Of a stretch of 64,000 nucleotides of DNA, positions 19,212 to 33,766 are shown piece after piece; position 1 is the first letter of the stretch; each line of letters begins with the position of its first letter. Below the pieces are notes generated by a model. The model was not told the DNA's origin. It made no database searches and worked only from the letters and a program-made list of their open reading frames with translations. The stretch is from assembly GCF_900215435.1 (NCBI RefSeq), contig NZ_OCMY01000003.1, positions 62,001-126,000 of the forward strand. Direction: 5' to 3'. The translations under genes and the position numbers were made by a program. Origin of the DNA: Candidatus Pantoea floridensis (GTDB lineage: Bacteria > Pseudomonadota > Gammaproteobacteria > Enterobacterales > Enterobacteriaceae).

Positions 19212-19364
19212 ATGAGCGAAAACCTTAAGTCAGACCTGAAGACAGCTCCTATTGTTTGCAACGTCCGCTTCTTGCACAGAGCGGACATTGATGGCATTAG
19301 ATGTATGAGAGTGCCATTGTCATACTGGACACAATCGTCATTCTGTCCAGACTATGCAGATTGA
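19212..19364 (+). CDS. Possible 50-codon reading frame containing a dispersed palindrome
   Basis: An ATG preceded by GGAGG (about 10 nt upstream) opens a short frame starting MSENLKSDLKTAPIV. It reads straight through the palindrome at 19262-19289, so its C-terminal part is probably not native. It may be the start of a gene truncated when the repeat arrived. The good ribosome site is the main support. Confidence 0.25.
   Translation: MSENLKSDLKTAPIVCNVRFLHRADIDGIRCMRVPLSYWTQSSFCPDYAD
19262..19289. repeat. Dispersed GTCCGC palindrome
   Basis: CGTCCGCTTCTTGCACAG followed by AGCGGACATT is a further copy of the motif described at 6523. It lies 65 nt before the broken acetyltransferase gene. Confidence 0.72.
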
Positions 19365-19833: not shown

Positions 19834-20179
19834 TACAGTCACGTCCTGAATAGACCGCATATTCTGTCCAGTGAACCACTTTTCAGGAACGTCTGCCGAG
19901 ATACAGCCCTGACCTAACCAAACCGAACCACTTTCAGGAAAATCAGAACCAATACAGTTAATTCTGTGCATCCCTGGACAAACTGCGTTTCTGACCAGGA
20001 ATGCAGAACGGAAACTGAAACATCTTCAATAAATCAAAGGGACTGACTGGCAGCTTTGAGCGAGAAGCGAATATGGGAGTTTGAGTGGTGTTTGACCATC
20101 AATCTCATCACATTCATGACCTACACCCCGTTCATTAACACACCGCGATCTTAGTAATGTCTTCATAAGCCATATGATG

Positions 20180-20656
20180 ACATCCTCATGACGCACCTCC
20201 CGCTTGCAGCAGCCGTTCCGGCTGCGCCGCGGTCGCGCCGTGTCCGGCGCTCTCACCATCCCGGCTATAACACCAACTGCGATCGCCGGGATGTAAGGCG
20301 CAATGCCGTTTCGCGCTGCCGCGCTTCCCGCCATTGCGACGACCCCTGCCGAATTATTCCCGGATCCATTTCACCGTTTAAGTACCTCTCGCCGGGGCTG
20401 ATACAAGCACAACCCGCTTTGCTGTCCATGGGACGGCAGGCCTTTCGCAGCAAATATTTCCCGGCCATTCCGCAGGCTCCATTAGACCGGAAAATTTTTC
20501 CCGCTCACCCCCGGACATCTGCACCGGGCCATGCTCGTTTACGCCCTCGCGGCGAAGGTTCTCAAACGGGTGAAGGTCATACCAAGGGAACAGTCAGGCA
20601 GGTTCCGCAAAAACGTCAACACCGCGGCTCCCGTAACTCAACGGGTGATGGGCTAA
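20180..20656 (+). repeat. Divergent leading-region repeat unit R0, upstream of the ParB-like gene
   Basis: This hairpin-rich stretch includes GCAGCAGCCG/CGGCTGC and a 9-bp CATCCCGGC/GCCGGGATG pair. Near its end it contains AAAACGTCAACACC, the same DNA that encodes the shared QNVNT residues in repeats R1-R4. A frame from 20531 to 20656 would include KNVNTAAP. It is therefore a diverged member of the repeat family at 23628, 26420, 28206 and 31016. The 19834-20180 stretch before it holds no gene I can support. Confidence 0.5.
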
Positions 20657-20739
20657 AAGGCAAGGGCAGTAATCAGGTGCCCTGTATGAGCGCTAACTTC
20701 GCAGGGCAGGCAGTCATCAATAAATAAGGGATATCAGCA

Positions 20740-22725
20740 ATGTCAGCAGCCGATGTTAAAACAGTGAACGATAAGAAAGCCACCGTTAAGAAAACCAGCG
20801 CAGCGGAGAAAGCCGCACTAAAACTCGCTCTCGATGCAGCAGGAATGGAATTTGTTCCGCTGTCCGATCTTGTTAAATCTCCGCTTAACGCACGTTCGCT
20901 CCCATATCCGGTTGAAAGCGTTCGTGGGCTGGCCAACACCATTGAAGCCATCGGTCTGCTGCACAACCTGGTGGTACATACTCTTCCTGACGGGAAATCC
21001 GGCGTAGCAGCTGGCGGTCGCCGCCTGACCGCGATGCAGCTGCTGTGCAGTGAGCAGCGCCTTAGCGAGGACCATCCCGTTGCAGTTAAGCGTGTTTCTG
21101 AGGAACTGGCGCTGATTGCCACGGTGGCGGAAAACGAGCAGCGCGTGGCAATGCATCCTGCTGAACAGATCCACGGTTTCAGTAAGCTGGCAGCCCAGGG
21201 TAATACCGCATCACAAATCGGTGCAGAACTTGGTTTCAGTGCCCGCCATGTTCAGCGCATGCTTAAGCTGACCAATCTGGCACCCTCACTGCTTACACTG
21301 CTGGCAGAAGACAAGCTTAATGTTGAGCAATGTCAGGCTCTTTGCCTTGAAGACGATCAGGTTCGCCAGGTTGAGGTATTTGAGAGTGTATGTGCCAGCT
21401 GGTCACATGCTCCCGCTCACGCACTCAAAACGCGCATCATTGATACGGAAATCAGCCTTACCAGCCCGCTTTTTGAGTTCGTTGGTCGTGAGGATTATGA
21501 AGTGGCAGGCGGCGTGGTGCGTGAAGATCTTTTCAGTCAGCAGGAAGGCGAGGGTACGGCTGAACGTGCACTGACTGAGCGCCTTGCTCTGGAAAATCTC
21601 AGTAATGCCGCGCGTGAAATTGAACAGCGCGAAGGCTGGGCGTGGAGTATGGGGCGTTTATTAGAGGTCAGTCATTACGGTGAAGATGGTAAGTTTTACG
21701 TTATTGCTGACGAACCTGAATCAGTCTACACCAAAGAAGAATCTGCACGACTCGATGAGCTGCAGGATAAATACAACGAAATTAATGAGCCGGGCCCAGA
21801 GCTGGATGCCGTTGAAGCTGAAATTAATGCAATTGAACAGGCCGCAGGAGCCCGGGCATGGACTGATGAAATGAAAATTAATGCGAGTGTAGTGGTCAGT
21901 CTCCATTATGGCGAAATTACCATTCAGCGCGGCGTACGCCGTAAAGCTGACCTGACTGAAACCCCAGAAACTGAAATGTCTGGCAGCATCTTCGGTCATC
22001 GCGATCCGGACGTAGCTGAAGGCGTGAGCCTGCCTCAGCTAACAAAAATGTCCTCAGAGCGGACACTTGCCGTACAGGCAGCGCTGATGCAGCAGCCTGA
22101 AAAAGCCGTGGCGCTCATGGTCTGGCGTCTGTGTTCACAAGTCTTCTCTCGTAGTTGGGGGATTCAGCATCCATTCAGCATAAACATAACCGTATCTCAT
22201 TCATCACTTACTGCTGATGCGCCGACAGGAAAAGATGGCGCGGCATTTATTGCGCTAATGCAGGAGAGAGCTCGCCTCGAGGCGCTACTTCCGGAAGGGT
22301 GGGAGCAGGACTTCACCACGTTCTTCGCCCTTGAGGGCGGCGTGTTGATGTCACTGATGGCCTACTGCACCGCCTGCTCTGTGAACGGTGTTCAAACTCG
22401 CGAATGCCAGCGCACTTCAACCAGCAAGCTGAATACGCTGGAAACCGCTATTGGTTTCCATCTGCGTGACTGGTGGCATCCGACTCGTAAAAACTTCTTC
22501 GCAGACATGAAGCACGCGCAGATAGTTGCGGTGCTTAAAGATGCTGGCCTGACTGGCGCTGCTTCTGATGCTGAAAAAATGAAGAAGGGAGATGCTGCTG
22601 ATCTCGCTGAGGCTCATTTCCAGAATACCCGATGGGTACCTGACTGGATGAAAGCCCCTGAGCAAAAAACGACTGTGCTGGCAGATATCACACCTGACAC
22701 TGATGGGCCCGCGCACGCGGCCTGA
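20740..22725 (+). CDS. ParB/Srx-domain protein of the plasmid leading region (YubM-like)
   Basis: The 661-residue protein has an N-terminal ParB/sulfiredoxin-type nuclease domain at about residues 30-130 (LVKSPLNARS, AAGGRRLTAMQLL, VAENEQRVAMHPAEQ). A helix-turn-helix follows near 150-185 (TASQIGAELGFSARHVQRML). The long C-terminal part is uncharacterised and rich in acidic residues. Size and architecture resemble the ParB-like YubM proteins of F-like plasmid leading regions rather than true partition ParB (300-350 residues). No parA is nearby, so a partition role is unlikely. Confidence 0.85.
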   Translation: MSAADVKTVNDKKATVKKTSAAEKAALKLALDAAGMEFVPLSDLVKSPLNARSLPYPVESVRGLANTIEAIGLLHNLVVHTLPDGKSGVAAGGRRLTAMQLLCSEQRLSEDHPVAVKRVSEELALIATVAENEQRVAMHPAEQIHGFSKLAAQGNTASQIGAELGFSARHVQRMLKLTNLAPSLLTLLAEDKLNVEQCQALCLEDDQVRQVEVFESVCASWSHAPAHALKTRIIDTEISLTSPLFEFVGREDYEVAGGVVREDLFSQQEGEGTAERALTERLALENLSNAAREIEQREGWAWSMGRLLEVSHYGEDGKFYVIADEPESVYTKEESARLDELQDKYNEINEPGPELDAVEAEINAIEQAAGARAWTDEMKINASVVVSLHYGEITIQRGVRRKADLTETPETEMSGSIFGHRDPDVAEGVSLPQLTKMSSERTLAVQAALMQQPEKAVALMVWRLCSQVFSRSWGIQHPFSINITVSHSSLTADAPTGKDGAAFIALMQERARLEALLPEGWEQDFTTFFALEGGVLMSLMAYCTACSVNGVQTRECQRTSTSKLNTLETAIGFHLRDWWHPTRKNFFADMKHAQIVAVLKDAGLTGAASDAEKMKKGDAADLAEAHFQNTRWVPDWMKAPEQKTTVLADITPDTDGPAHAA

Positions 22726-22763
22726 TAAGGAGTGCCGCCCTGCGGGGCGGCAGAAAGGACACA

Positions 22764-22853
22764 ATGATGAATCAGAACATCATATGGTGCGATGGTCAGC
22801 TGCAGGAGACAAAGGATGTTGGTTATCCACAGAAACGGGGGATAAAGGTGTGA
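22764..22853 (+). CDS. Possible 29-residue peptide
   Basis: Two adjacent ATG codons follow AGAAAGGAC. The frame reads MMNQNIIWCDGQLQETKDVG and stops 10 codons later. It lies directly after the ParB-like gene and may be a genuine small gene or a remnant of a leading-region gene. There are no recognisable motifs. Confidence 0.3.
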   Translation: MMNQNIIWCDGQLQETKDVGYPQKRGIKV

Positions 22854-22919
22854 GTAATGGACAGAAACATCTGAACGTCCAATGTGGCGCAGGGATTAAA
22901 CGAGGGGCGTAAAAAAGGT

Positions 22920-22967
22920 CACAGTCGCTCTCAGGAATACTTCTGATACTGCGGGAAAGCGACTGTG
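22920..22967. terminator. 10-bp inverted repeat between the ParB-like and lipoprotein genes
   Basis: CACAGTCGCT (22920-22929) and AGCGACTGTG (22958-22967) are perfectly complementary around a 28-nt loop. The element sits between convergent genes, so a terminator or RNA-stabilising role is plausible; no T-run adjoins it. Confidence 0.4.
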
Positions 22968-22979
22968 GTACGCAAAGTT

Positions 22980-23531
22980 CTACTCATTTCCCCAGGTATG
23001 CCGACAGATTCTGGTGCTATCCCAGCTGGGCTGGGCAGGCTGGGGAAATTCGCTGATGACTTTCTGTGGATCGGTATTACTGGTAATCACATAATCATTC
23101 GGGATTTCGTGTACGCCGCGATCAACAGCAAAATAATAACGTTTTCCTGACTGAGGTATAAAAGGCAGCTTCTTTATGACCTGGACAGTGGAAAAGGGGC
23201 CTAAAGGGTAAAATTGTTTTTTGGTGTTATAGATCTGTTGAACGGCTAAAAGTTTACCGGGCTGAATCTTGAGGGTGAAAATTCTTCTGCTCGAGTCAAA
23301 CATATTGGGCCTGACTGTGTAGATCTCAATTCTGTCGTAGCATTCTCCTTTATTTTCATAATAAAGAAGGGTAACAATTCCGGCTACTTCCTCCTGTTGA
23401 ATGACCAGGGTAGCAGCATCTGAACCGGTGTAATCTTTGTGCTGTCGCGGCAACAGGTTTGAGCATCCTGAAAGGATTAAGGCTGAAGTAAGAACAGCCA
23501 GGGACAGTGAATTGTTAAAAAATGACGGCAT
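22980..23531 (-). CDS. Putative lipoprotein, unknown function
   Basis: The 183-residue protein has a signal peptide with a lipobox (ALILSGCSN; Cys near residue 23) and then a predicted exported domain. I recognise no family. It contains two tyrosine-rich beta-type stretches (VTLLYYENKGECYDRIEIYTV and KRYYFAVDRGVHEIP). It would be lipid-anchored in the cell envelope. It is the only minus-strand gene in a long run of plus-strand leading-region genes. Confidence 0.65.
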   Translation of the reverse strand: MPSFFNNSLSLAVLTSALILSGCSNLLPRQHKDYTGSDAATLVIQQEEVAGIVTLLYYENKGECYDRIEIYTVRPNMFDSSRRIFTLKIQPGKLLAVQQIYNTKKQFYPLGPFSTVQVIKKLPFIPQSGKRYYFAVDRGVHEIPNDYVITSNTDPQKVISEFPQPAQPSWDSTRICRHTWGNE

Positions 23532-23627
23532 GTCTGTTATCTCCCTAAAGTTGACGTCAGCTGTTATCGGCAGACAACCAGAAATCCTTTATCTCCAGGT
23601 TTTAAAAGAAGCAGACCAGCGTAACGA

Positions 23628-24163
23628 TATGGCCCCCTCCGGCTTCCCGGCAAGCCGGGGCGTCGAGCCCGACTGCGCTAACCGGCAAAGCCGGTAAGCT
23701 CCGCCGAACCGCCCTTGGCGTTTCGGGCCTGGCGGCTAGGGTCTGATGGCAATGGCCAAATCAACCCCTGCAGCGGGCTTTCGCCCGCGCGTACACTGGC
23801 CACGCAGGACGTGGCCGCTGAGGCCCGGACCGGCAAAGCCGTCCGGGGTGCGTTCCTGCTCATCTCCATACCGGCAGCCCATGTTCCGGCGGTTCTTCGC
23901 GGAGGGCTGGTCGTAGCACCGCCGGGACGCCCGCCCGCAAGAGTTCGCTTCGCCGTTCCCCGCCCGTTCGCACTCGCCTGCGGCTCGCTTGTGCTGCGGC
24001 CTGCGGTGACGCTCGTGCGTTCGTGCACCCGTCGTTGCTCCTTTGCCCTTCGCCGCGATGAACTCACCGAAACATGGTTTCAGCAACCGACAACAGGAGA
24101 ACCAGCATGAACACACAGAACGTCAACACCGCCGCTTCTGAATCTTCCGAAACATGGGTAAAC
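23628..24163 (+). repeat. Leading-region direct repeat R1 (about 0.54 kb)
   Basis: The unit begins TATGGCCCCCTCCGGC, contains hairpins (GGCTTCCCGGCAAGCC; GCGGGC-TTTC-GCCCGC at 23773-23788; GGACCGGCAAAGCCGTCC) and ends inside the first codons of the next gene. It is nearly identical by eye to 31016-31546 over the last 340 nt and clearly related to 26420 and 28206. It has no convincing gene of its own. The conserved boundary at about codon 19 of the downstream gene is striking. Confidence 0.85.
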
Positions 24164-24511
24164 CCGGCTTTTTACTCTGCAACGGAGGGGGTTTTTAGCG
24201 GCTTCCCCGTGAGTGCTGAAGACGATCACAACTACTGGTTGCGTCGTGAGCAGGCGGCAGTCAGTGCACCGAAGGAAATTGATGTACACCGCTACCACGA
24301 TGCGCTTGGGCTGATGTACCCACGCTGCTGGGCAACAAGTGAAAACGGAGAATATGAGAGTTTCATGCTCGATGAGATGTACTGCGGGCGCGTGACGGAA
24401 ATTTTTGCACGCATAGGGGGATGTTATTACCGGCTGCGCGATTACAGCCATCTGAACCATGCGCAGATTATGACGCACGTTAAGGAGGAACTTGCTCAGA
24501 AGCAGAAATGA
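24107..24511 (+). CDS. DUF1419-like plasmid protein with shared N-terminal tag
   Basis: A 134-residue protein beginning MNTQNVNTAASESSETWV, a sequence shared with the unrelated gene at 31490. The rest (HRYHDALGLMYPRCW, EYESFMLDEMYCGRVTEIFARIGG, YYRLRDYSHLNHAQIM) resembles DUF1419 proteins of enterobacterial plasmids, as far as I can judge by memory. The start at 24107 follows CAGGAG. Function unknown. It is the first gene after repeat R1. Confidence 0.7.
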   Translation: MNTQNVNTAASESSETWVNPAFYSATEGVFSGFPVSAEDDHNYWLRREQAAVSAPKEIDVHRYHDALGLMYPRCWATSENGEYESFMLDEMYCGRVTEIFARIGGCYYRLRDYSHLNHAQIMTHVKEELAQKQK

Positions 24512-24516
24512 AAAAA

Positions 24517-24532
24517 GCAGGCATAAGCCTGC
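24517..24532 (+). terminator. Attenuator-like hairpin
   Basis: GCAGGC-ATAA-GCCTGC immediately follows the stop of the DUF1419-like gene and a run of A residues. Similar GCAGG hairpins follow stop codons at 27504 and 29196, before the next small gene each time. Confidence 0.6.
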
Positions 24533-24600
24533 TTCATTCCCGCCAGGTAAACGCTCGCAACGTCACCCTGGCTACCATCAAACTTAATGGAGATCTAACC

Positions 24601-24747
24601 ATGAAATTCGACCCGGTGATCGTGTCACAGGCGGAATCTTTTGTAAATGCCCTTCGTAATGGAAAACGCGCCCGCGTTCCAGCCCTGAAGCTGGAGCACT
24701 GGCAGCAGTTTATGACGAAGGTCTACGCTGGCCATGGCCTCGCGTGA
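24601..24747 (+). CDS. Small plasmid protein (48 residues), paralogue of the one at 29278
   Basis: The protein begins MKFDPVIVSQAESFVNAL and contains ARVPALKLEHWQQFM. It aligns end to end with the 49-residue product at 29278 (MNFDPQIVAQAQAFVKGF, VRVPKMTFSSWPCFM), which shows that this short frame is real and duplicated. AGGAGA-like bases (GGAGATC) lie 8-10 nt upstream. Function unknown. Confidence 0.7.
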   Translation: MKFDPVIVSQAESFVNALRNGKRARVPALKLEHWQQFMTKVYAGHGLA

Positions 24748-24794
24748 TGTGAAACGTGCCGCCCCGGAGGGGCGGCAATTAAAAGGATAAATTC

Positions 24795-25607
24795 ATGTCA
24801 CAGTTGAGCTTTGCCGAATTTTTTGATCAGTCAAAAGACCGCCTGCCGTCTACTGCTCCGGTATCTTTGGCTCCGGTGCCTGCCGTTGTTCCACGGATGA
24901 TGAGTCTTGACGCCTCGCGGCGACAATTTATCCGCGTGTTCAGGGATACGGGCAATCACCTTCGCCGCTGGGATGTGTTCAGCGATTTCATTACGCTATG
25001 CGCCAGCGAGCTGGATATCGCCCGGATACGATCGCCTGAAAGTATGGATCGGTGTCGCAAAATCTGCGATCGCTACAGCGCTGCCGATATCCAAAACATG
25101 CACGAGCTGTTCCAGTTGATGGTTTGTGCACTGGAGGCAGAATTTCACGATTTTCTGGGGGCGATTTTTATGGAGCTGGAGCTGGGCGACGATCGGCGCG
25201 GCCAGTATTTTACCCCGTATTGCGTGCAATCGATGATGGCGCGAATGCTGATGCCTGGCGTGAAAGAGACCATTGAACGAGAGGGATTTTTTACATTGTC
25301 TGAACCCACCTGTGGGGCGGGAGGAATTGTTATCGCCTATGCCGAATGTATGCTTGAGTCAGGGCTTAACCCTTCTATGCAGATGTTTGTCAGTTGCATC
25401 GATATCGATCCAATTGCGGCGGATATGGCATTTATTCAGCTTTCTCTGCTGGGTATTGCCGCCGAGGTAACCACAGGCAACACGCTTACATTGCAGTTAA
25501 GTCGGGTTCGTTACACACCCGTTTATTACCTTAACGACTTTGAAGAGCGGTTGTCTGCTCAGCGCCGGGTCAAAGCAATGCGGGATTTTATCCAGCGTAT
25601 CAGTTAA
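24795..25607 (+). CDS. Orphan N6-adenine DNA methylase-like protein lacking motif IV
   Basis: The 270-residue protein has GQYFTPYCVQSMM (near residue 135) and SEPTCGAGGIVIAYAE (SAM-binding motif I, near 165), as in HsdM/Eco57I-type methylases, and then DIDPIAADMAFIQLSLLGI. After GNTL the catalytic NPPY/F motif expected of N6-adenine methylases is missing: the sequence runs LSRVRYTPVYYLNDF to the end. No restriction subunit is adjacent. It may be an inactive or modified methylase used in plasmid establishment, which is inference. Confidence 0.8.
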   Translation: MSQLSFAEFFDQSKDRLPSTAPVSLAPVPAVVPRMMSLDASRRQFIRVFRDTGNHLRRWDVFSDFITLCASELDIARIRSPESMDRCRKICDRYSAADIQNMHELFQLMVCALEAEFHDFLGAIFMELELGDDRRGQYFTPYCVQSMMARMLMPGVKETIEREGFFTLSEPTCGAGGIVIAYAECMLESGLNPSMQMFVSCIDIDPIAADMAFIQLSLLGIAAEVTTGNTLTLQLSRVRYTPVYYLNDFEERLSAQRRVKAMRDFIQRIS

Positions 25608-25693
25608 AGAAGCCTGATAAGAGGCTCTCGGGCGGCTATATGCCGCCCATGCCTCAGCTGGCTGAATCGGGCATTAAATAACATCCGAAGAGT

Positions 25694-25739
25694 GTTTCGC
25701 AATGAGAAACATGTGATATACTGTTTCTCGAAACGAAAC
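25694..25739. promoter_or_regulatory. Twin operators of the HigBA-type toxin-antitoxin operon
   Basis: Two copies of GTTTC-N7-GAAAC lie at 25694-25710 and 25723-25739, with centres 29 bp apart, between the methylase and toxin genes. GATATACT between them is a likely -10 region. Paired palindromes over a promoter are typical antitoxin-binding sites. Confidence 0.7.
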
Positions 25740-25752
25740 ACGGAGGCAGGGC

Positions 25753-26034
25753 GTGATTAAAAGCTGGAAGCATAAGGGGCTGCAAAAGCTCTTTGAAAAA
25801 GGCGATATCAGTGGCGTACAGGCACAGGATGCCGAACGTATCCGCATGCGGTTGCTTGTTATTGATGAAGCGATCTCAACGGATGAATTCAGAAACTATC
25901 CGGGGTTCCGTTTCCACCCCCTGAAAGGTGACCGCAGAAACCTGTTTTCAATCACTGTCAGGGCAAACTGGCGTATTACGTTCGAATTCACGGACGGCGA
26001 CGCATACATTCTCAACCTGGAGGACTATCACTGA
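25753..26034 (+). CDS. higB: HigB-type toxin (RelE superfamily)
   Basis: This 93-residue protein matches plasmid-maintenance killer proteins: KSWKHKGLQKLFEKG at the N-terminus, FRFHPLKGDRRNLFSITV in the middle and NWRITFEF near the C-terminus. Such toxins cleave mRNA on the ribosome. The toxin gene precedes the antitoxin gene, as is characteristic of HigBA, and overlaps it by one base. Confidence 0.88.
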   Translation: MIKSWKHKGLQKLFEKGDISGVQAQDAERIRMRLLVIDEAISTDEFRNYPGFRFHPLKGDRRNLFSITVRANWRITFEFTDGDAYILNLEDYH

Positions 26035-26357
26035 TGGCTATGTACAATCCCCCGCATCCGGGCGGTCTGATCACCGAGTATATGGAAGATAACAACATCG
26101 GCCTGCGTGTCCTGGCTAAAGAACTGGGCGTATCGGCACCGGCGCTTAGCAAGGTTGCGAACGGCAAGGCGTCTGTCAGTCCGGAAATGGCTGTACGTCT
26201 TGAGGCGGGGCTGGGGATCGCTGCGCGCCTGTGGTTATCGATGCAGGCTGCCTGTGATTTGTATAAGGCCCGGGAGTCCACCGATGTTTCCGGTGTGCCA
26301 CTGCATCCGGGTATGCAGGGAGTGGCGCGGGATGCGCAGACCGGCAAAGGTGCATAA
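26034..26357 (+). CDS. higA: HigA-type antitoxin
   Basis: A 107-residue helix-turn-helix protein of the XRE/HigA type (NPPHPGGLITEYMEDNNIG, VLAKELGVSAPALSKVANGK, SPEMAVRLEAGLG). It would neutralise HigB and repress the operon through the paired palindromes at 25694-25739. The start overlaps the toxin stop (TGATG). The C-terminus is slightly longer than usual for the family. Confidence 0.88.
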   Translation: MAMYNPPHPGGLITEYMEDNNIGLRVLAKELGVSAPALSKVANGKASVSPEMAVRLEAGLGIAARLWLSMQAACDLYKARESTDVSGVPLHPGMQGVARDAQTGKGA

Positions 26358-26419
26358 CTGCTGCGACTGCTCATTGCACCGGCCGAAAACAAGGCAGGCA
26401 CAACTGCATTTAACTCCTG

Positions 26420-26935
26420 CTGGCCCCCTTCGGCTTCCCGGCAAGCCGGGTCGTCGAGCCCGACTGCGCTAACCGGCAAAGCCGTTAAGCTCCGCCGAAC
26501 CGCCCGTGGCGTTTCGGGCCTGACGGCTAGGGTCTGATGGCAACGACCAAATAACTCCGCCTGCAGCGGGCTTTCGCCCGCGCGTTCACTGGCCACGTAA
26601 GACGTGGCCGCTGAGGCCCGGTACGGTAGAGCCGTCCGGGGCTGTGACCTGTTCATCTCTGTCATGCCTGATGCTCTTCTGAGTTTCCCTGCCGCGCAGA
26701 AATCTGCCATACGCGCGTCATCACGCCAGGGTCGCAAGCTAAACGCTTGCACCCGGTCCCTTCGGGCTGCGGCCTTGTCGTTTCCCCTTGCGTTCTTCCG
26801 CCCGCACGACAGTTCTGCTTTTCGCGGCGAGGAATCTCAAAGAATCATCATTTTCATCCCAACTGGAGTAGCAACATGTCACAGCAAAACGTCAACACCT
26901 CGGCTCAGTCAACTCAAGAATCATCATCGGAAATG
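26420..26935 (+). repeat. Leading-region direct repeat R2
   Basis: The first 225 nt (TGGCCCCCTTCGGCTTCCCG and following, including GCGGGC-TTTC-GCCCGC) match R1, R3 and R4 closely. The remainder has diverged but still ends in ATG and codons for QNVNT. It lies between higA and the RadC gene, with no other gene in it. Confidence 0.75.
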
Positions 26936-26998
26936 CCTGGAAGCAATGTTCACTTTTTCAGTCAGCTTCACGTAGCGATGCGCACGGGAACTTTGTGA
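26876..26998 (+). CDS. 40-residue tagged leader ORF overlapping radC
   Basis: The frame begins MSQQNVNTSAQSTQESSSEM, a version of the MNTQNVN tag found after R1, R3 and R4, and follows a GGAG ribosome site. It ends at TGA (26996-26998), overlapping the RadC start by 4 nt (ATGA). It may act as a translational leader, or it may be the original N-terminus of RadC separated by a frameshift. Confidence 0.5.
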   Translation: MSQQNVNTSAQSTQESSSEMPGSNVHFFSQLHVAMRTGTL

Positions 26999-27450
26999 TG
27001 GCGTCGGCAGCGCAGGTCCTGGCTGAGGCAATGCGCGCTATTGATGTTCGCTATCCCACTGGTACCATCTTCGAATCCTCTGAGGTATCAGGAGAGTTCT
27101 TCAGGGCAAAACTTGCCGGTCGCGATAGAGAGGTTTTTGCCGTGGCGTTTCTCAATAATCAAAATCAGCTGATTGCTTACGAAGAGATTTTTGCTGGAAG
27201 CGTGAATAGCGTCGAAGTCCATCCACGAGAGATTGTCCGTGCGGCGATGCGTCTTAATGCAGCTGCGGTGATCCTGAGCCATAACCACCCATCATTCACA
27301 CCAAAACCATCTAAAGCAGACAACACCATTACGGTACGGATTAAAGATGCATTACAGCTGGTCGAAGTGCGGCTTCTGGATCACATCATTGTTGCAGGCA
27401 ATGAAACAACATCGCTGGCCCAACTTGGGCACATCAATAATCGGGGCTGA
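26995..27450 (+). CDS. radC: RadC-family JAB-domain protein (YeeS/YkfG-like)
   Basis: The 151-residue MPN/JAB metalloprotease-like domain contains FLNNQNQLIAYEEIFAG (about 50-65) and the zinc motif SHNHPSFTPKPSKAD (about 98-112; His-x-His plus Asp), followed by LVEVRLLDHIIV. These are hallmarks of plasmid- and prophage-borne RadC proteins, whose role in DNA repair or plasmid biology is unsettled. Translation is probably coupled to the upstream tagged ORF. Confidence 0.88.
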   Translation: MMASAAQVLAEAMRAIDVRYPTGTIFESSEVSGEFFRAKLAGRDREVFAVAFLNNQNQLIAYEEIFAGSVNSVEVHPREIVRAAMRLNAAAVILSHNHPSFTPKPSKADNTITVRIKDALQLVEVRLLDHIIVAGNETTSLAQLGHINNRG

Positions 27451-27503
27451 CCGGATGCAGAGTTAAAAGTAGTACGCCAGCTCCACATAACACATAAAAA
27501 AAA

Positions 27504-27521
27504 GCAGGGTATGAACCCTGC
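27504..27521 (+). terminator. Hairpin downstream of radC
   Basis: GCAGGGT-ATGA-ACCCTGC follows a run of A residues 54 nt after the radC stop. It is similar to the hairpins at 24517 and 29196. Confidence 0.6.
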
Positions 27522-27594
27522 CTGCCCCCGCTCCCGACTTCCGCGACGAAATCAGGGCTTCACAGAACCATTGATTAACATAGAGTAAATCAAC

Positions 27595-27969
27595 ATGTCT
27601 TCAGCACAGACTTTATCAATCGATAATTACACAGTAAACCCTGCCTTAACCGATACCCGCGAACCGGTGCGCATGGAAACAATCGAGGCGATTGCTGAGA
27701 TGGCAAAAGGCACGGAACGGCCTGTACTGATATGGGGTAACACCGATCGGGCAATAACGGCTGCGGAGGCGCTATGGGTTTTTGCAAAGCGCACCGGGCT
27801 GGATAGTAAAAATGAAGACGCATTTACGTCAGTGCAGGACCTGATTGCAAATCTCATGCACCTTTGTGAGCAGGAAGGCATTACGGGTGGCGAGGTAACA
27901 TTTTCAGCCCTGGTCAGCATGGCGGAAATGCATTATCTCTCTGAGCTGGATGAAAAAGTCGTTTTCTAA
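27595..27969 (+). CDS. Hypothetical plasmid protein (124 residues)
   Basis: The middle section reads ERPVLIWGNTDRAITAAEAL and LCEQEGITGGEVTFSALVS. It loosely recalls DUF1380-type leading-region proteins, but I cannot confirm that. It is acidic, with no signal peptide or membrane segment. It lies between radC and repeat R3 on the same strand. Confidence 0.6.
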   Translation: MSSAQTLSIDNYTVNPALTDTREPVRMETIEAIAEMAKGTERPVLIWGNTDRAITAAEALWVFAKRTGLDSKNEDAFTSVQDLIANLMHLCEQEGITGGEVTFSALVSMAEMHYLSELDEKVVF

Positions 27970-28047
27970 AGACAGGGCCGGTAAAGGCCCTGCGTATTCA
28001 ATTGCGCACGATTAACATACTGGTGGCGTGCAGGGCAGGGATAAGCC

Positions 28048-28061
28048 GGCGCTGACGCGCC
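28048..28061 (+). repeat. Upstream hairpin of repeat unit R3
   Basis: GGCGC-TGAC-GCGCC is preceded by GGGCAGGGAT. Equivalent hairpins with compensated bases, GGTGC-TGAC-GCACC at 30873 and GGTGC-TGGC-GCACC at 32579, precede R4 and R5. This marks a conserved module about 150 nt before the main repeat. The rest of 27970-28205 has no gene I can support. Confidence 0.6.
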
Positions 28062-28205
28062 AGCCATCTCCCTTTGCCTGTATCTGCTGTCTCAGGTGCT
28101 ACGGATCCTGTTACTGCCTTGTTCTTGCCGGCAGCTGGTCTTCGCATGCCGTTTACGCTTGTGCCTTCGTTACTGATTCATCTTCTGCAACAAGATCAAT
28201 TCCGC

Positions 28206-28735
28206 TATGGCCCCCTCCGGCCTCCCGGCAAGCCGGGGCGTCGAGCCCGACTGCGCTAACCGGCAAAGCCGATAAGCTCCGCCGAAGCGCCCGGGGCGTT
28301 TCGGGCCTGACGGCTAGGGTCTGATGTCTGAGGTCAACCCCTGCAGCGGGCTTTCGCCCGCGCGTTCACTGGCCACGTAAGACGTGGCCGCTGAGGCCCG
28401 GACCGGCAAAGCCGTCCGGGGTGTGTTCATGCCGTTTTCGTGCGCGGCGGCCCTGTTCCGGTCAGTCCAGGCGCGGAGGGCTGGTCGTAGCACCGCCGGG
28501 ACACCCGTCCGCAAGAGTTCGCTTCGCCGTTCCTCGTCCGTTCGCACTCGCCTGTGGCTCGCTTGCGCTGCGGCCTGCGGTGACGCTCGTGCGTTCGTGC
28601 GCCCGTCGTTGCTCCTTTGCCCTTCGCCGCGACTGGATCGACCGAAACATGACAAACCACCTCAGCAGGAGAAATGCCATGAACACACACAACGTCAACG
28701 TCAAAACCGCCACGCCAGAATCTCCCAAAACATGG
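28206..28735 (+). repeat. Leading-region direct repeat R3
   Basis: This unit starts TATGGCCCCCTCCGGCC and ends within the codons for a tagged mini-ORF at 28679. It is very similar to R1 and R4, including the GCGGGC-TTTC-GCCCGC hairpin and the segment GCTCGTGCGTTCGTGC. Long open frames across it are by-products of its high GC content. Confidence 0.85.
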
Positions 28736-28774
28736 GGGGCGGGTCATGCGATCTATTTGGCGGACGTGTACTGA
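28679..28774 (+). CDS. 31-residue tagged mini-ORF after repeat R3
   Basis: The frame reads MNTHNVNVKTATPESPKTWG and stops after a further 11 codons. It begins with the same tag as the genes at 24107 and 31490 and has an AGGAGA site upstream. The downstream gene starts 48 nt later with its own AUG, so this looks like a tag whose original body was lost or a leader peptide. Confidence 0.5.
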   Translation: MNTHNVNVKTATPESPKTWGAGHAIYLADVY

Positions 28775-28822
28775 GACCAGCGGCGAAAAAGCACTGAATA
28801 CTGACAACGGGAGAAAGACAGG

Positions 28823-29191
28823 ATGAAAAAACAGCATACCGGTGCCGCTCAGGCGGGCGTTCAGACAGAAATCCCCGGGCTGACGCCGGGCCTTGCAGAG
28901 AGTCTTGCGGCGCTGACCGAGCTGGGTAAGCACCGTCTCAGCGCCAGCGAAGAACACGAATTTTTACGGTTCACGCTGCACGACATGGCGCAGCAGGTGG
29001 CCGACACCGTACAGGGCAACGCGCTGCCGCTGTCGTCGTTTCGCGCGTGGATCGTGGCGAGTCATATCGTGCACGCACAGTTTGGCAGCCGGGGAGAGGT
29101 GGTTTGGGGGCGCGCCAGCAGCAGTCTGGCGGCGAGACTTAACGACATCAGCGCCGGGCTGTCGCCGGACACCGGCAAACAGCAGGCGTAA
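28823..29191 (+). CDS. Hypothetical plasmid protein (122 residues)
   Basis: An alpha-helical protein without recognisable motifs (LTPGLAESLAALTELGKHRL, DMAQQVADTVQGNALPL). GGGAGAAAGACAGG precedes the ATG. It is followed by a GCAGG hairpin and a small MNFDP protein, the same order as after the DUF1419-like gene, suggesting a duplicated gene block. Confidence 0.6.
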   Translation: MKKQHTGAAQAGVQTEIPGLTPGLAESLAALTELGKHRLSASEEHEFLRFTLHDMAQQVADTVQGNALPLSSFRAWIVASHIVHAQFGSRGEVVWGRASSSLAARLNDISAGLSPDTGKQQA

Positions 29192-29195
29192 AAAA

Positions 29196-29213
29196 GGCAG
29201 GGTTGCCCCTGCC
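29196..29213 (+). terminator. Hairpin after the 28823 gene
   Basis: GGCAGGG-TTGC-CCCTGCC follows the stop codon and an A-run, in the same position as the hairpins at 24517 and 27504. Confidence 0.6.
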
Positions 29214-29277
29214 ATCTTCACGGTCGCCAGTTAGCGCCTGGCGGCCACATCAAAACCAAAAAGCTCAGGAGAGTTAT

Positions 29278-29427
29278 ATGAATTTTGACCCGCAAATCGT
29301 CGCACAGGCACAGGCGTTTGTAAAAGGCTTTAACAGTGGTCGCGGCGTACGCGTCCCGAAAATGACGTTCAGCAGCTGGCCATGCTTTATGCGCGCCGTG
29401 CGTCAGCAGATGGAGAGTCAGCCATGA
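29278..29427 (+). CDS. Small plasmid protein (49 residues), paralogue of the one at 24601
   Basis: It begins MNFDPQIVAQAQAFVKGF and contains RVPKMTFSSWPCFM, matching the product at 24601 along its length. CAGGAGAG precedes the ATG. A 12-codon frame (29424-29462) overlaps its stop by ATGA and leads to the next gene. Function unknown. Confidence 0.7.
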   Translation: MNFDPQIVAQAQAFVKGFNSGRGVRVPKMTFSSWPCFMRAVRQQMESQP

Positions 29428-29458
29428 GCCACCTCAGCAATGAGACAGTGCAGATGGC

Positions 29459-29989
29459 ATGACGCCCGTTGCGCAGGAGGACATCGTCCGCGTGCTGGGC
29501 GCATACTGTCTTATCCGCCTCGATAACGGCGCTGAATCTTTCTGGCACCACGGGCATTACGTGTGCGCAGCGGACAGCGCAACCGGTGATCAGTGCGTGG
29601 CCGATGTGGCTCGCCTTGCCGCACGAGCCGGGGGCCAGTCGCTGCGGCACGCTGAGCTACCGGTGCCGGATGGTGACTGGTGCTGGAACGATATTGTCAA
29701 ACGGCTGGCGCGCAGCGCGCTTACCGAAACGGTCCGCGCCTCCGGCATCGTAACGGGCAGTATGACGCCGCAGGGGCGGTGCGTACACTTCTGCGATCAC
29801 CCACTGCTGAGCGGCGTAAATGACAACCTGTGGTTTCCGGTTGGTCACAATGAAAGCTGGTTTGAAGCCGTTGAGCGCATCCTCATTCTTAACGGGCTGG
29901 CAGAAAATCTGGTAAACCTGTCGCCGCTGCGCGAAGGCGGCGGCTATTCCGACTGGAAAGCAACCTGGAATCGACGGGTTATTATCTGA
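29459..29989 (+). CDS. Hypothetical plasmid protein (176 residues)
   Basis: The protein contains several Trp- and Cys-bearing stretches (GDWCWNDIVKRLA, FCDHPLLSGVNDNLWFPVG, NESWFEAVERILI) but no family I recognise. There is no signal peptide or membrane segment. It is preceded by a 12-codon overlapping frame and GCGCAGGAGG-like bases lie inside the frame, so the exact start is uncertain. Confidence 0.55.
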   Translation: MTPVAQEDIVRVLGAYCLIRLDNGAESFWHHGHYVCAADSATGDQCVADVARLAARAGGQSLRHAELPVPDGDWCWNDIVKRLARSALTETVRASGIVTGSMTPQGRCVHFCDHPLLSGVNDNLWFPVGHNESWFEAVERILILNGLAENLVNLSPLREGGGYSDWKATWNRRVII

Positions 29990-30119
29990 AGAAAAGCGGG
30001 ACCCGGCACCAGTCTGGTGCCGGGCATGATAACGAAACGGGGGTGACAGCGCCCCGCTGAATCAGAGCGATACCTGAGACCATCAGGACAGTGCCGGGAA
30101 CAGCTACAGTAAGTTATTG

Positions 30120-30159
30120 TTAGCATATATGCTAAGTTGGTCTTTGTGCTAACTTAGCA
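30120..30159. promoter_or_regulatory. Operators of the RelE/XRE toxin-antitoxin pair
   Basis: A perfect 16-bp palindrome TTAGCATATATGCTAA (30120-30135) is followed by TGCTAA-C-TTAGCA (30147-30159). Both share TTAGCA half-sites and lie 35-75 nt before the toxin gene, so they are likely antitoxin-binding sites. Confidence 0.7.
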
Positions 30160-30193
30160 TTATTGCTATTATTACGTTCACGGAGGAGATAAA

Positions 30194-30514
30194 TTGTTTA
30201 ACGTAAAACTGCACGACGATGCCGGTAACGAACTGGAAGCCTTACCCGCAGAGATTGCCGCCAAAATGCTGCGCCTGCTGGAGAAGCTGGAAAAAAATCC
30301 CCGTTCTCTGAGAGAGCCGCACTGCAAGCCGCTCGGTAACGGCCTGTTTGAAGTACGCACGATGGGCGGTGATATCGCACGCGGATTATGGGTCTATCAG
30401 ACCGGTCAGAATATCTTCGTGTTGCGTATCTTCATCAAGAAAACACCTAAAACGCCACCGGCAGAGATTGATCTGGCGTGGCGCAGACTGGAGGACATGA
30501 TCAATGGCGCATAA
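30194..30514 (+). CDS. RelE/HigB-like toxin (phage Gp49-type)
   Basis: The 106-residue protein has the features of Gp49-type toxins: LEALPAEIAAKMLRLLEKLEKNP, PHCKPLGNGLFEVRTMG and NIFVLRIFIKKTPKTPP. The start is TTG at 30194, with GGAGG 8 nt upstream; no ATG fits better. It overlaps the antitoxin gene by 11 nt. It probably cleaves mRNA at the ribosome. Confidence 0.83.
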   Translation: MFNVKLHDDAGNELEALPAEIAAKMLRLLEKLEKNPRSLREPHCKPLGNGLFEVRTMGGDIARGLWVYQTGQNIFVLRIFIKKTPKTPPAEIDLAWRRLEDMINGA

Positions 30515-30785
30515 AACCCTGGCAGAGATGAAAGCCAGACTGATGCAGAGCGAAGATTTCAGGGCAGCCTACGAGGCCGAGGCCCGGAAAGAGCGTCTTC
30601 AGGAGCTGCTGGCTGAATGGCGCAGCCATGCCGGGCTGAACAGCGCGGATGTGGCTGCCAGAATGGGCATTGCACCTTCCACGCTGTCCCGCATGGAAAA
30701 AAATATCACATCGGCCAGCGTCGAAAACCTGTCCCGATATGCACGCGCGTGCGGTGTGAACGCGGCGACGATTTTTTTCGGTTAA
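30504..30785 (+). CDS. XRE-family antitoxin
   Basis: The 93-residue protein has a C-terminal helix-turn-helix (AGLNSADVAARMGIAPSTLSRMEK, about 50-73) and an N-terminal helical arm, as expected for antitoxins of Gp49-like toxins. It would bind the TTAGCA palindromes upstream and repress the operon. Confidence 0.85.
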   Translation: MAHKTLAEMKARLMQSEDFRAAYEAEARKERLQELLAEWRSHAGLNSADVAARMGIAPSTLSRMEKNITSASVENLSRYARACGVNAATIFFG

Positions 30786-30870
30786 CCTGGTTTAACGTGC
30801 CGGGAAGGGCACCAGCGCCCTTTCTGGCTGAGGGCAGTAAAAGACCGGTAGCCCTGCGGGCAGGTCAGAA

Positions 30871-30888
30871 CCGGTGCTGACGCACCGG
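30871..30888 (+). repeat. Upstream hairpin of repeat unit R4
   Basis: CCGGTGC-TGAC-GCACCGG has a 7-bp stem and is preceded by CCCTGCGGGCAGG. It is equivalent to the hairpin at 28048, with the middle pair changed from C-G to T-A. The rest of 30786-31015 has no gene. Confidence 0.6.
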
Positions 30889-31015
30889 CCCTCTACCTAC
30901 ACCTGTCCGGTCATCCCCTGCTGCATCCATCCTTACGATATCAGTTATCCCACCGGCTGTCGGGGCTGAGCCCCTGCCATTTCTGTTATCCAGACTGATT
31001 CTGCCACTGCCAGGG

Positions 31016-31546
31016 TATGGCCCCCTTCGGCTTCCCGGCAAGCCGGGTCGTCGAGCCCGACTGCGCTAACCGGCAAAGCCGGTAAGCTCCGCCGAACCGC
31101 CCGTGGCGTTTCGGGCCTGACGGCTAGGGTCTGATGTCTGAGGTCAACCCCTGCAACCGGCTTGCGCCGGTGCGTTCACTGGCCACGTAAGACGTTGCCG
31201 CTGAGGCCCGGACCGGCAAAGCCGTCCGGGGTGCGTTCCTGCTCACCTCCATACCGGCAGCCCATGTTCCGGCGGTTCTTCGCGGAGGGCTGGTCGTAGC
31301 ACCGCCGGGACGCCCGCCCGCAAGAGTTTGCTTCGCCGTTCCTCGCCCGTTCGCACTCGCCTGCGGCTCGCTTGCGCTGCGGCCTGCGGTGACGCTCGTG
31401 CGTTCGTGCACCCGTCGTTGCTCCTTTGCCCTTCGCCGCGATGAACTCACCGAAACATGGTTTCAGCAACCGACAACAGGAGAACCAGCATGAACACACA
31501 GAACGTCAACACCGCCGCTTCTGAATCTTCCGAAACATGGGTAAAA
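31016..31546 (+). repeat. Leading-region direct repeat R4
   Basis: This unit begins TATGGCCCCCTTCGGC and is nearly identical to R1 from about 31200 to its end inside codon 19 of the next gene. Its internal hairpin reads ACCGGC-TTGC-GCCGGT (31156-31171) where R1-R3 have GCGGGC-TTTC-GCCCGC, so two base pairs changed on both sides of the stem. Confidence 0.85.
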
Positions 31547-32416
31547 ACGCCTGAATCCGTCTATTTCACGCGGAAGATTGCTGCGCTGGCCGACCTTGCC
31601 CGCCTGGAAGGCGAGATGATGGCTTTCTTTGCGTTAGAGCGGCTTGGCATCGGGGGTGAGGATTTACGCGAGGATGTCCCGATGATTGCGCAGGACAGGA
31701 TCGAGATGCTGGCAGCAATGGGTGCCATCAGCTCACCGGCCGTGTATGAATTGGTGTGCGCAGCAGATGAGCTGATAACCGAGCTGGATCCGACCTTATA
31801 CCCCATAGTGCTGCCAACACAGGAGGAATACAAGGCTGCGTCGGCATCCCGGAAGGCGCAGTGTCTGACACAAATTCAGGAAACCATGAAACCCTTTAGC
31901 GTCGAGATGTGGGGGGAAAAGGTTTATCCGGACGAATTTTCACTGGATAAAACTTACTGGACGGACAGTAGCATTCATCTGGGCCGAGCCTGGACTGTGG
32001 CGCAGGCGCTTGAACTTGCCAAAGCGGCATGGCTTAAGGATGAGTGGAATTCGCGCGAGGAGGGCGTTGACTACTTTGATGAGAATTTTGGCCGCGATAC
32101 GGGACCGATCAGCTTCCGTCCAATCCGCATTGTTATCAGCGACGAAAAAAACAAGACGGTTCTGACAGGGGACCCGGCCGACCTCAGCTGGCATGCGGAT
32201 ATTACTGGCCCGGAAGAAAAGGCCCGCATCCGGGCGGCACAGGATGAAATGCTTAAAAAAGCGCGAGCTGAAAGCTACTGGTGTAACTATGAAACCGCGC
32301 GTCAGCTGCGCAGTAAAGTGAAGGATATGAGCAGGACAATTGTGGATGAAGCCTGGCAGGAGCACCCGGAAGTCATCGCGGCGATAGCGGCCTTTATTCA
32401 TCCTGCACCTGTATAG
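31490..32416 (+). CDS. Hypothetical protein (308 residues) with shared N-terminal tag
   Basis: It begins MNTQNVNTAASESSETWV, identical to the DUF1419-like gene at 24107, and then continues with an unrelated acidic, helical sequence (ALADLARLEGEMMAFFALERLG, WTVAQALELAKAAWLKDEW). I recognise no domain. CAGGAG precedes the start at 31490. A strong terminator follows, so it ends this transcription unit. Confidence 0.65.
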   Translation: MNTQNVNTAASESSETWVKTPESVYFTRKIAALADLARLEGEMMAFFALERLGIGGEDLREDVPMIAQDRIEMLAAMGAISSPAVYELVCAADELITELDPTLYPIVLPTQEEYKAASASRKAQCLTQIQETMKPFSVEMWGEKVYPDEFSLDKTYWTDSSIHLGRAWTVAQALELAKAAWLKDEWNSREEGVDYFDENFGRDTGPISFRPIRIVISDEKNKTVLTGDPADLSWHADITGPEEKARIRAAQDEMLKKARAESYWCNYETARQLRSKVKDMSRTIVDEAWQEHPEVIAAIAAFIHPAPV

Positions 32417-32477
32417 TCTGGCGGGGGCGAGGCGCTGCTGAGTATGAATCAGGTTGCCCAGCGCAATGAGTGAACGG

Positions 32478-32499
32478 AGCCCCGCAGGGGGCTTTTTTT
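32478..32499 (+). terminator. Rho-independent terminator
   Basis: AGCCCC-GCAG-GGGGCT is followed by seven T residues, 62 nt after the 308-residue protein gene. Confidence 0.85.
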
Positions 32500-32575
32500 G
32501 TTACCGGCAGGCGGTATGTGGCAGAGCAGGACCTTTACGCTCCGGCAAAGAGGGCAGCCCTGCGGGCAGGACGTT

Positions 32576-32595
32576 ACCGGTGCTGGCGCACCGGT
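32576..32595 (+). repeat. Upstream hairpin of truncated repeat R5
   Basis: ACCGGTGC-TGGC-GCACCGGT has an 8-bp stem, preceded by GCCCTGCGGGCAGG. It is the R5 counterpart of the hairpins at 28048 and 30871. Confidence 0.6.
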
Positions 32596-32736
32596 CATCT
32601 CCCTTCGCCTGTGATGTCAGTCACCCGGGCACTGTTTCATATTCTGGCCAGTATTCCTGATGCTGAAACTGCTCACGTAATGGTTGTCTCGCTATTTATC
32701 AGGGGGCGCAATCAGTGCCAGGCGTATCAAACCTCT

Positions 32737-32806
32737 TATGTCCCCCTTCGGCTCCTGCCCTGGCGGCCAGTCGTCGAGCCCGACTGCGCTAACCGGCAAA
32801 GCCGGT
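32737..32806 (+). repeat. Truncated leading-region repeat R5
   Basis: Only about 70 nt of the repeat remain (TATGTCCCCCTTCGGC, then GTCGTCGAGCCCGACTGCGC and GGCAAAGCCGG) before the sequence passes into a DsbA-like fragment. It marks a rearrangement junction. Confidence 0.7.
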
Positions 32807-32841
32807 ATCCGGAGTCGACACTGGCCTCACACCGGGGCCTG

Positions 32842-33174
32842 AGTATTTACCGTCATCAGGGAGCAGATGCGTATATGACGTATCACAACGGGATTTACCG
32901 GACGGGGCATAACGAAGGCAAACTCACAGCAGAAGATATCGAAACGGTTGCCACGACGTCGGGCGCCGCCGCCGTTTCTGACGATGATAACGTTACATCC
33001 GATCATCTGATCGAAAACAACGATGCGCTCGCGGAAATGCTGGGTCTGACGGGGACGCCGGGAATTATCATAATGCCCGTCGAAAATGCCACGGCAGACA
33101 ACACCACGGTGCTTCCGGGAGTGGTCAGCGAGCAGGTGATGCAGCAGGCAATCGCCCGGGCCGCGGGCGGATAA
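32842..33174 (+). pseudogene. C-terminal fragment of a DsbA/ScsC-type thiol oxidoreductase
   Basis: From about 32842 the frame reads ADAYMTYHNGIYRTG, LTAEDIETVATTSG, NNDALAEMLGLTGTPGIII and TTVLPGVVSEQVMQQAI. This matches the helical insert and cis-Pro loop (GTPGI) of DsbA-family proteins, but the N-terminal part with the CxxC active site is absent. The frame is open back to 32470 through repeat R5, yet that part has no family features. It is probably a remnant joined to R5. Confidence 0.7.
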
Positions 33175-33179
33175 AAAAA

Positions 33180-33198
33180 TCCCGGCTCAGGGCCGGGA
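33180..33198. terminator. Terminator hairpin after the DsbA remnant
   Basis: TCCCGGC-TCAGG-GCCGGGA is flanked by a run of seven A on the left, so it would act as a terminator mainly for minus-strand transcripts. No gene is recognised between 33199 and 33766; an IncFII copB-like gene was looked for and not seen. Confidence 0.6.
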
Positions 33199-33766
33199 AA
33201 ATAGATTCATGAATTATTTACCGCGAGCGAGTCGCCAGCAGTAACACGGGTATCGGCTAACCCGCCAGAACCTTTACCCCTCTGACGCCCATGACGCTCA
33301 GGCTGTTCGTTCCTCGCGCTGCTGCGGTACGCCTCAGCCTGCCCGGTCTGCCCGTCGCTATACAGAGTGACCATTAACGAACATCACTACCGGCAATAAC
33401 GTTTTGTCCGCCAGTCTTCCCTTCAAACCTGCTTGAGTGTCCCGCCAGACGCCGGATTTGGATTAAGTCAGCCGAAAAGGTGAATGAGATCACGGGAAAA
33501 GGTATCGGTGAACTTTTTTTATCCATACGATTCGTGCCACGCGCAATCTGTGCTGGATTTAAGCGGTTGAGATGAGTATTCTTTTCAGAATTCGCCGGGC
33601 GGCGATCTTTTTTTGATCCTTATCCGAGTACTGTGGTGGTCGACGATGAGGATATGCGAAAAACCTGTGGCCGGACATGCGCGGCGCGGGGAAGAACAAA
33701 CCGGATGGGACGTATCCGTAAAAACGTCCAGGGTACGGAGCTCGGCTTTCACCGGTCTCTGAATGC

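Follow-up and report, generated by a model that had tools for sequence, protein, structure and literature searches.

Why do unrelated proteins encoded in one region begin with nearly the same residues? This question is raised by a 64,000-nucleotide (nt) stretch of Candidatus Pantoea floridensis DNA, positions 62001 to 126000 of contig NZ_OCMY01000003.1 (C3), which we call the window. It carries repeats of about 0.5 kb, R0 to R5, and R1 to R4 each run into the start of a different open reading frame (ORF), to which they contribute about 18 codons, the tag. The original prediction likened the repeats to the single-stranded promoters (Frpo/ssi) of the F and ColIb-P9 leading regions. It suggested that they may drive expression from the incoming single strand, the tag serving as a conserved translation-initiation region. 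We found that the likeness to Frpo and ssi rests on homology, that the tag is better explained in another way, and that the expected transfer context did not turn up on C3. We consider it probable that the tagged elements are Frpo/ssi-type hairpins of the transferred strand whose base arm overlaps the start of the gene.

Pairing of the start codon region with an upstream arm

We built a hidden Markov model (HMM) from R0 to R4 and F Frpo1 and searched 151 sequences with it. We found 130 copies differing in sequence; class B, which has an ATG, accounts for 107 of them, and class A, which lacks it, for 23. In class A, the tag DNA contains no in-frame ATG, GTG, or TTG within 27 nt; F Frpo1 and Frpo2 belong to this class, as does R0. 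As predicted, the tag is present in related plasmids and stands ahead of unrelated proteins: 101 of the 107 class B copies encode at least 60 amino acids (aa), and clustering of their products from residue 21 onward gave 18 groups (single linkage at an E value of 1e-3, by which groups may be merged or split). One gene was counted twice (L035 and L055), and some copies were cut by the ends of their loci. The pattern used for the genome scan fixed several tag bases and left the third positions of the Asn and Val codons partly or wholly open; its 104 stretches included many chance matches in unrelated bacteria, which were removed only at the HMM step. A class A copy near position 2581 of L156 lies on a Streptomyces assembly contig and is probably contamination. 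Loci L132 and L149 lie on a 5.2-Mb Pantoea contig.

We compared the start region of each copy with the DNA 130 to 330 nt upstream, leaving out 12 of the 130 copies that had too little upstream sequence. Local complementarity exceeded a z score of 3 in 59/97 class B copies and in 3/93 untagged control starts (95 such starts minus two: L063:15036, which is tagged and itself scores above 3, and a start that lies within a tagged gene). Of the class B copies, 95 were long enough for alignment, and we thinned these to 49 representatives by shared 8-mers. The representatives were aligned by sequence only, so as to avoid picking arms by their complementarity. We found that 13 nt spanning the start codon (the three bases before it, the start codon itself, codons 2 and 3, and the first base of codon 4) pair with an arm 195 to 261 nt upstream (median, 240). 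Watson-Crick pairs fill 588 of the 637 cells of this 13-pair stem, compared with a maximum of 496 in 5000 permutations. Pairing reached 95.0% of the cells against a shuffle mean of 77.7%, and none of 500 shuffles reached 95.0%.

The two arms change together. Double changes occur at 10 of the 13 pairs (shuffle mean, 6.1; equalled in 1 of 500 shuffles) and in 93 cells (shuffle mean, 23.5), and one pair displays all four Watson-Crick types. The covariation score was 0.460, compared with 0.132 in shuffles, and it was 0.150 or less after the arms were slid by 1 to 3 columns. Examples of covarying arms are ATGAACACAC with GTGTGTTCAT, ATGCACACAC with GTGTGTGCAT, AGGATG with CATCCT, and AGAATG with CATTCT. 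Given a second alignment, of 49 transferred-strand sequences, RNAalifold by itself predicted 12 of the 13 base-stem pairs. In the window, the variant tag of R2 (AACATGTCACAGC) pairs with its own arm (GCTGTGACCTGTT) at 12 of 13 positions and with the arms of R1, R3, and R4 at 5 of 13; the R2 arm pairs with the tags of R1, R3, and R4 at only 4 to 5 of 13.

If the repeats were mere recombination substrates that shuffle leading-region genes, their likeness would stem from recent exchange. The similar tags ahead of 18 groups of unrelated bodies and the 95% identity of R1 and R4 would fit such exchange. Neither the double changes at 10 of 13 pairs nor the loss of pairing on sliding by 1 to 3 columns would be expected from recombination by itself. 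We regard this explanation as very unlikely.

DNA, mRNA, or peptide as the constrained molecule

We asked on which strand the imperfect pairs are tolerated. The stem has 49 cells that are not Watson-Crick pairs. The transferred strand carries G.T in 17 of these and the coding strand in 1; the remaining 31 show neither. A second count, on 51 distinct arm pairs with arms located by consensus, gave 34 transferred-strand and 8 coding-strand G.T pairs, with 62 neither; it kept only copies whose arm agrees with the consensus at 9 or more of 13 bases and tends to lose variant tags. We also found that the transferred strand has the lower folding energy in 70 of 70 copies (21/21 in class A and 49/49 in class B). 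Its median z scores were -5.5 in class A and -6.6 in class B, compared with -3.8 and -4.2 for the complement (folding z scores were taken from 25 and 60 shuffles). The transferred-strand hairpin scored below -2 in all 21 class A copies and in 47 of 49 class B copies (R0, -3.5; R2, -4.3; R3, -3.5; R4, -2.4; the set did not include R1). The inner stem scored above 3 in 21 of 21 and 42 of 49 copies, respectively. The G.T bias and the lower energy of the transferred strand in every copy suggest that selection probably acts on single-stranded transferred DNA.

Alternatively, the pairing could act in mRNA, where long transcripts from an upstream double-stranded promoter would contain both arms and hide the start codon, and transcripts arising inside the element, without the 5' arm, would be translated. 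Consistent with this, the paired 13 nt include the start codon in the 49 representatives, and the match covers an upstream GGAG in several copies (e.g., L096 and L165). Pairing in mRNA predicts that G.T is tolerated on the coding strand, whereas it is commoner on the transferred strand in both counts, and it does not account for the lower energy of the transferred strand in 70 of 70 copies. An Rfam scan of positions 20000 to 33300 found no family at the gathering score, which also argues against an mRNA structure and led us to reject a known RNA family. We think it unlikely that the pairing acts in mRNA.

The tag might instead be a peptide signal under protein-level selection, for example, for secretion, stability, or folding. 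We analyzed the codons of 103 of the 107 tags, which form two groups, with and without a 6-nt insert (3 tags were classed as other, and 1 was too short). They comprise 65 unique tags, 37 without the insert and 28 with it, and codon 6 is GTC in 64 of the 65. The insertion preserves the frame, and the ratio of nonsynonymous to synonymous differences (pN/pS) is below 1 over whole tags (0.67 and 0.77). Over codons 5 to 12 of the insert group it is 0.57, a value that makes a peptide role possible, and over codons 5 to 9 of the tags without the insert it is about 1.05. In the core of the group without the insert, synonymous sites are thus as constrained as the rest; elsewhere the constraint on them is weaker. 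Separate Frpo-type copies are followed by tagged genes that retain a similar peptide. Downstream of F Frpo1 lies a gene, by its position ygeA of PMC9849209, that begins MSTRNIHVNTA, with the peptide kept despite changed codons, and its product matches a tagged Enterobacter protein at 66% over 90 residues.

Against a peptide signal, codons 2 and 3 vary while upstream changes compensate, and class A retains the tag DNA without a start codon. Untagged homologues of tagged bodies also exist in several plasmids (names from annotation): a DUF905 protein and an antirestriction protein in F and ColIb-P9, a DUF3560 protein in pKpQIL, a DUF4942 protein in ColIb-P9, a JAB protein in an IncL/M plasmid, and one protein on contig C4 of our genome. 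We give selection for a peptide signal little credence. Given the compensated variation of codons 2 and 3, an arm of a transferred-strand hairpin is a better explanation of the tag than the translation-initiation region first proposed. The shared peptide appears to be mainly a by-product of DNA structure.

A known domain was rejected as the identity of the tag, since a Pfam search found no match for the tagged 134-aa and 308-aa proteins; for the former, labeled DUF1419-like in the original prediction, this held at E values up to 0.01, and the label was not confirmed. A single 187-aa protein of L170 combines the tag with a body that resembles RadC by eye (compare positions 26876 to 27450 behind R2). 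On two Klebsiella plasmids (L058:17712-17840 and L061:23909-24040), a second tag, this one translated, lies 81 nt beyond a start-less Frpo-type copy.

According to the hairpin model, each element would form a long imperfect hairpin on the transferred strand, and in the tagged class the base of the stem would be the start codon region paired with the upstream arm. The hairpin would offer promoter-like duplex DNA to RNA polymerase before second-strand synthesis. The polymerase would transcribe towards the origin of transfer (oriT) and into the gene while the plasmid is still single-stranded, a step that we propose by analogy with F. A gene that recombines in behind an element would begin with the ~18 codons that belong to the element. 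Since the hairpin arm extends into the first codons, unrelated proteins would come to share one beginning.

The compensating changes and the strand bias are evolutionary evidence for functional structure in transferred single-stranded plasmid DNA. They offer a simple account of the shared beginnings of unrelated leading-region proteins, explain a feature liable to be mistaken for a protein domain, and provide a signature for finding the genes that are expressed first in the recipient. More speculatively, the element could be a device for both gene capture and timing. The base arm of the hairpin would serve at once as start codon and first codons and so give any incoming gene expression from the single strand, while read-through mRNA made from the double-stranded plasmid would contain both arms and conceal its own start codon. 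We hold this to be doubtful; if true, protein synthesis would be confined to the minutes of DNA entry.

The window copies and their genomic setting

The features of the repeat region are listed in Table 1. Comparison of the repeats supports the predicted arrangement: R1 to R4 are direct repeats in a single orientation, each stopping within a coding start that bears the tag, R0 is diverged, and R5 is a truncated remnant. R1, R3, and R4 share 86 to 95% identity over ~0.5 kb, with R1 and R4 the closest pair. R2 is similar to the other repeats over its first 220 to 240 nt (89 to 90%) and again at the tag (72%), and the only BLAST match of R0 within the repeats is to the tail of R2 (32 nt, 84%). 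The tag core occurs at 10 sites in the window with up to 3 mismatches, compared with 1.34 expected, and five of these are in R0 to R4.

TABLE 1 Repeats, stem arms, and associated genes in the window
Feature	Position	Strand	Observation
R0, Frpo-type element	20180..20660	+	~462-nt alignment to F Frpo1/Frpo2; class A; tag-equivalent DNA begins at 20609, without start codon
ParB/YubM-like protein, 661 aa, behind R0	20740..22725	+	50% to F ParB-like protein; HTH_ParB
R1 repeat including tag codons	23628..24164	+	Direct-repeat comparison
R1 upstream arm GTGCGTTCCTGCT	23848..23860	+	11/13 pairs; letters identical to R4 arm
R1 start-codon arm AGCATGAACACAC	24104..24116	+	
Tagged 134-aa protein, R1	24107..24511	+	ATG 24107; MNTQNVNTAAS
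R2 repeat	26419..26930	+	Variant tag MSQQNVNTSAQ
R2 upstream arm GCTGTGACCTGTT	26641..26653	+	12/13 pairs; fits variant tag
R2 start-codon arm AACATGTCACAGC	26873..26885	+	
Tagged 40-aa ORF, R2	26876..26998	+	ATG 26876; overlaps start of RadC-like ORF 26995-27450
R3 repeat	28206..28740	+	Direct-repeat comparison
R3 upstream arm GTGTGTTCATGCC	28421..28433	+	12/13 pairs
R3 start-codon arm GCCATGAACACAC	28676..28688	+	
Tagged 31-aa ORF, R3	28679..28774	+	ATG 28679; MNTHNVNVKTA
R4 repeat	31016..31545	+	Direct-repeat comparison
R4 upstream arm GTGCGTTCCTGCT	31231..31243	+	11/13 pairs plus one transferred-strand G.T
R4 start-codon arm AGCATGAACACAC	31487..31499	+	
Tagged 308-aa protein, R4	31490..32416	+	ATG 31490; MNTQNVNTAAS
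R5, truncated 5' module	32737..32807	+	82-86% over 70-72 nt to R1-R4

DNA like part of R3 occurs in at least 5000 plasmid records, and 3989 of those 5000 are predicted to be conjugative; 26 among the matches listed cover at least 80% of the length of R3. A tblastn search with the 20-aa tag gave up to 608 records at E values up to 10, and the 60 of 608 listed were mostly annotated as hypothetical. R4 matched 13 of 394 genomes in a sample of the order, the window's own genome included.

The genome is in five contigs, of which C3 has 180,939 bases. Of the F proteins compared with C3 (22 from transfer and 12 from the leading region), only the ParB-like one matched. A family search found no TrwC-family relaxase in the whole genome, and matches to the Relaxase family (PF03432) were on C4 and C1. 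C4 also carries two R-type copies, with repeats at 22.7 to 27.8 kb, which point to positions 19240 to 19328. This segment of C4 matches the presumed oriT region (before mobA) of plasmid stretch L064. C3 itself has leading-region-type genes without a detected transfer system.

We examined nine stretches from plasmids of Pantoea, Enterobacter, Klebsiella, Citrobacter, and Serratia and from an IncL/M plasmid. Because the oriT is unannotated in these relatives, we judged direction from traM and relaxase genes, near which gene order leads one to expect it. The genes behind the elements point to a traM or relaxase gene in seven of the nine stretches (L059, L060, L061, L062, L063, L064, and L066), and the other two end before any such gene. 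PLSDB classes L060 to L063 as conjugative and L059, L064, and L066 as non-mobilizable. Gene direction in these seven relatives agrees with the original prediction, and nothing comparable was found on C3.

The AT-rich apex of the hairpin, of a type believed to bear promoter boxes, was scored by a crude motif test. It is present in R0 and in about half of each class (12/21 in class A and 25/49 in class B). By direct reading, both C4 copies retain it. In the alignment, a GC-rich stretch replaces the apex in R3 and R4. Exact promoter boxes on the hairpin were not assignable by eye, and we claim none. We rejected an ordinary array of double-strand promoters, as positions 23500 to 33000 contain 1 sigma-70-like double-strand site compared with 4.5 expected.

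Several observations weigh against the hairpin model, and we set them out together. (i) On pairing, only 4 of 21 class A copies have arm complementarity with a z score above 3, and the window copies singly pair weakly (z scores of 0.8 for R1, 2.0 for R2, 3.0 for R3, and -0.1 for R4). The R3 arm pairs with the R1 and R4 tags as well as with its own, and the shuffle statistics leave the relatedness of the copies in place. The AACGTCAA core (24119-24126, 26888-26895, 28691-28698, and 31502-31509) is one of the best-conserved stretches in the whole element yet lacks consistent pairing in R1 to R4, which implies that some other constraint acts on it. (ii) On folding, the strand bias is weaker in the second wobble count, at 34 versus 8 cells or 12 versus 6 distinct position-types. 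The complement has the lower shuffle z score in 6 of 70 copies, including R2 and F Frpo1; 2 of 49 class B copies miss a hairpin z score of -2, and 7 of 49 miss an inner-stem z score of 3. (iii) The pN/pS of 0.57 in the insert group and the peptide kept behind F Frpo1, both described above, speak for the peptide. (iv) On setting, C3 has no F-type tra genes among the 22 transfer proteins searched and no match to TrwC or Relaxase, the only two relaxase families searched. No oriT-like region turned up on C3 with the presumed oriT regions of six plasmids, chosen by gene order. (v) By the crude motif test, R2, R3, and R4 lack the AT-rich apex (R1 is 95% identical to R4) and also a GTxCATTT-like motif. 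Because R1 to R4 are without the apex, we class them as relatives of Frpo promoters, not as Frpo promoters. Their own promoter activity is uncertain, and the window copies may be weak, altered, or decaying.

Other repeats and genes lie nearby. Copies of a second repeat family at 28022-28088, 30847-30913, and 32553-32619 (63% and 79% to the reference copy) start 169 to 184 nt upstream of R3, R4, and R5. Small gene pairs at 25753-26357 and 30194-30785 resemble RelE/Xre toxin-antitoxin modules by eye, and in relatives L059 and L066 a RelE/Xre-like pair is annotated after an N-6 DNA methylase.

Relation to Frpo and ssi elements

The analogy to Frpo and ssi in the original prediction can be stated as homology. 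Over ~462 nt, R0 shares 68% identity with F Frpo1 and Frpo2, and it is likewise followed by a ParB-like gene. The repeat tails match F Frpo1/2 over 43 nt at 79% (R2) and 46 nt at 78% (R3), and R3 and R4 share 56 nt at 80% with a ColIb-P9 Frpo-like repeat. The HMM found the tail in all 130 copies. R1 itself gave no BLAST match to F, and its match to ColIb-P9 is at chance level (E value of 0.08); we tie it to the family through R3 and R4. We judge it likely, for R0 to R4 jointly, that they are members or descendants of a group of leading-region hairpins best known from F Frpo and ColIb-P9 ssi.

Of the ColIb-P9 Frpo-like repeats, the two that were folded resemble our elements in that the transferred strand is the more stable one. 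A difference is that a search of 50 kb of ColIb-P9 with the tag-region HMM gave no copy. A short ColIb-P9 repeat (L030 27574-27650 and 34634-34710, 86%) starts 153 to 180 nt upstream of two Frpo-like repeats. A 355-nt repeat (L030 26108-26461 and 33744-34097, 96%), distinct from the Frpo-like repeats, lies directly upstream of an antirestriction gene and ardA and is possibly another leading-region control element.

In F, Frpo1 and Frpo2 are reported to be necessary for early expression of downstream genes, and transcription from single-stranded DNA and early expression in the recipient are reported for them (PMC9849209). Samuel et al. (2024, PMC11541004) described Frpo and Frpo-like candidates (Frpo' and Frpo*) on a large scale, and Frpo has been linked to PsiB plasmids (PMC12826799). 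Like our elements, Frpo' and Frpo* are Frpo-like hairpins that precede leading-region genes, but they were identified from a -35/-10/UP consensus, the fold, and BLAST; the words "N-terminal" and "repeat" are absent from the main text of PMC11541004. The passages of PMC11541004 and PMC12826799 that we compared mention neither the tag nor covariation, and no title or abstract opening listed by our literature searches deals with the tag or with covariation in Frpo.

The predicted transferred-strand fold of F also pairs the tag-equivalent DNA, here with an arm ~254 to 289 nt upstream. F and R0 have the tag DNA without a start codon, whereas in R1 to R4 the tag DNA is a coding start and the AT-rich apex is missing.

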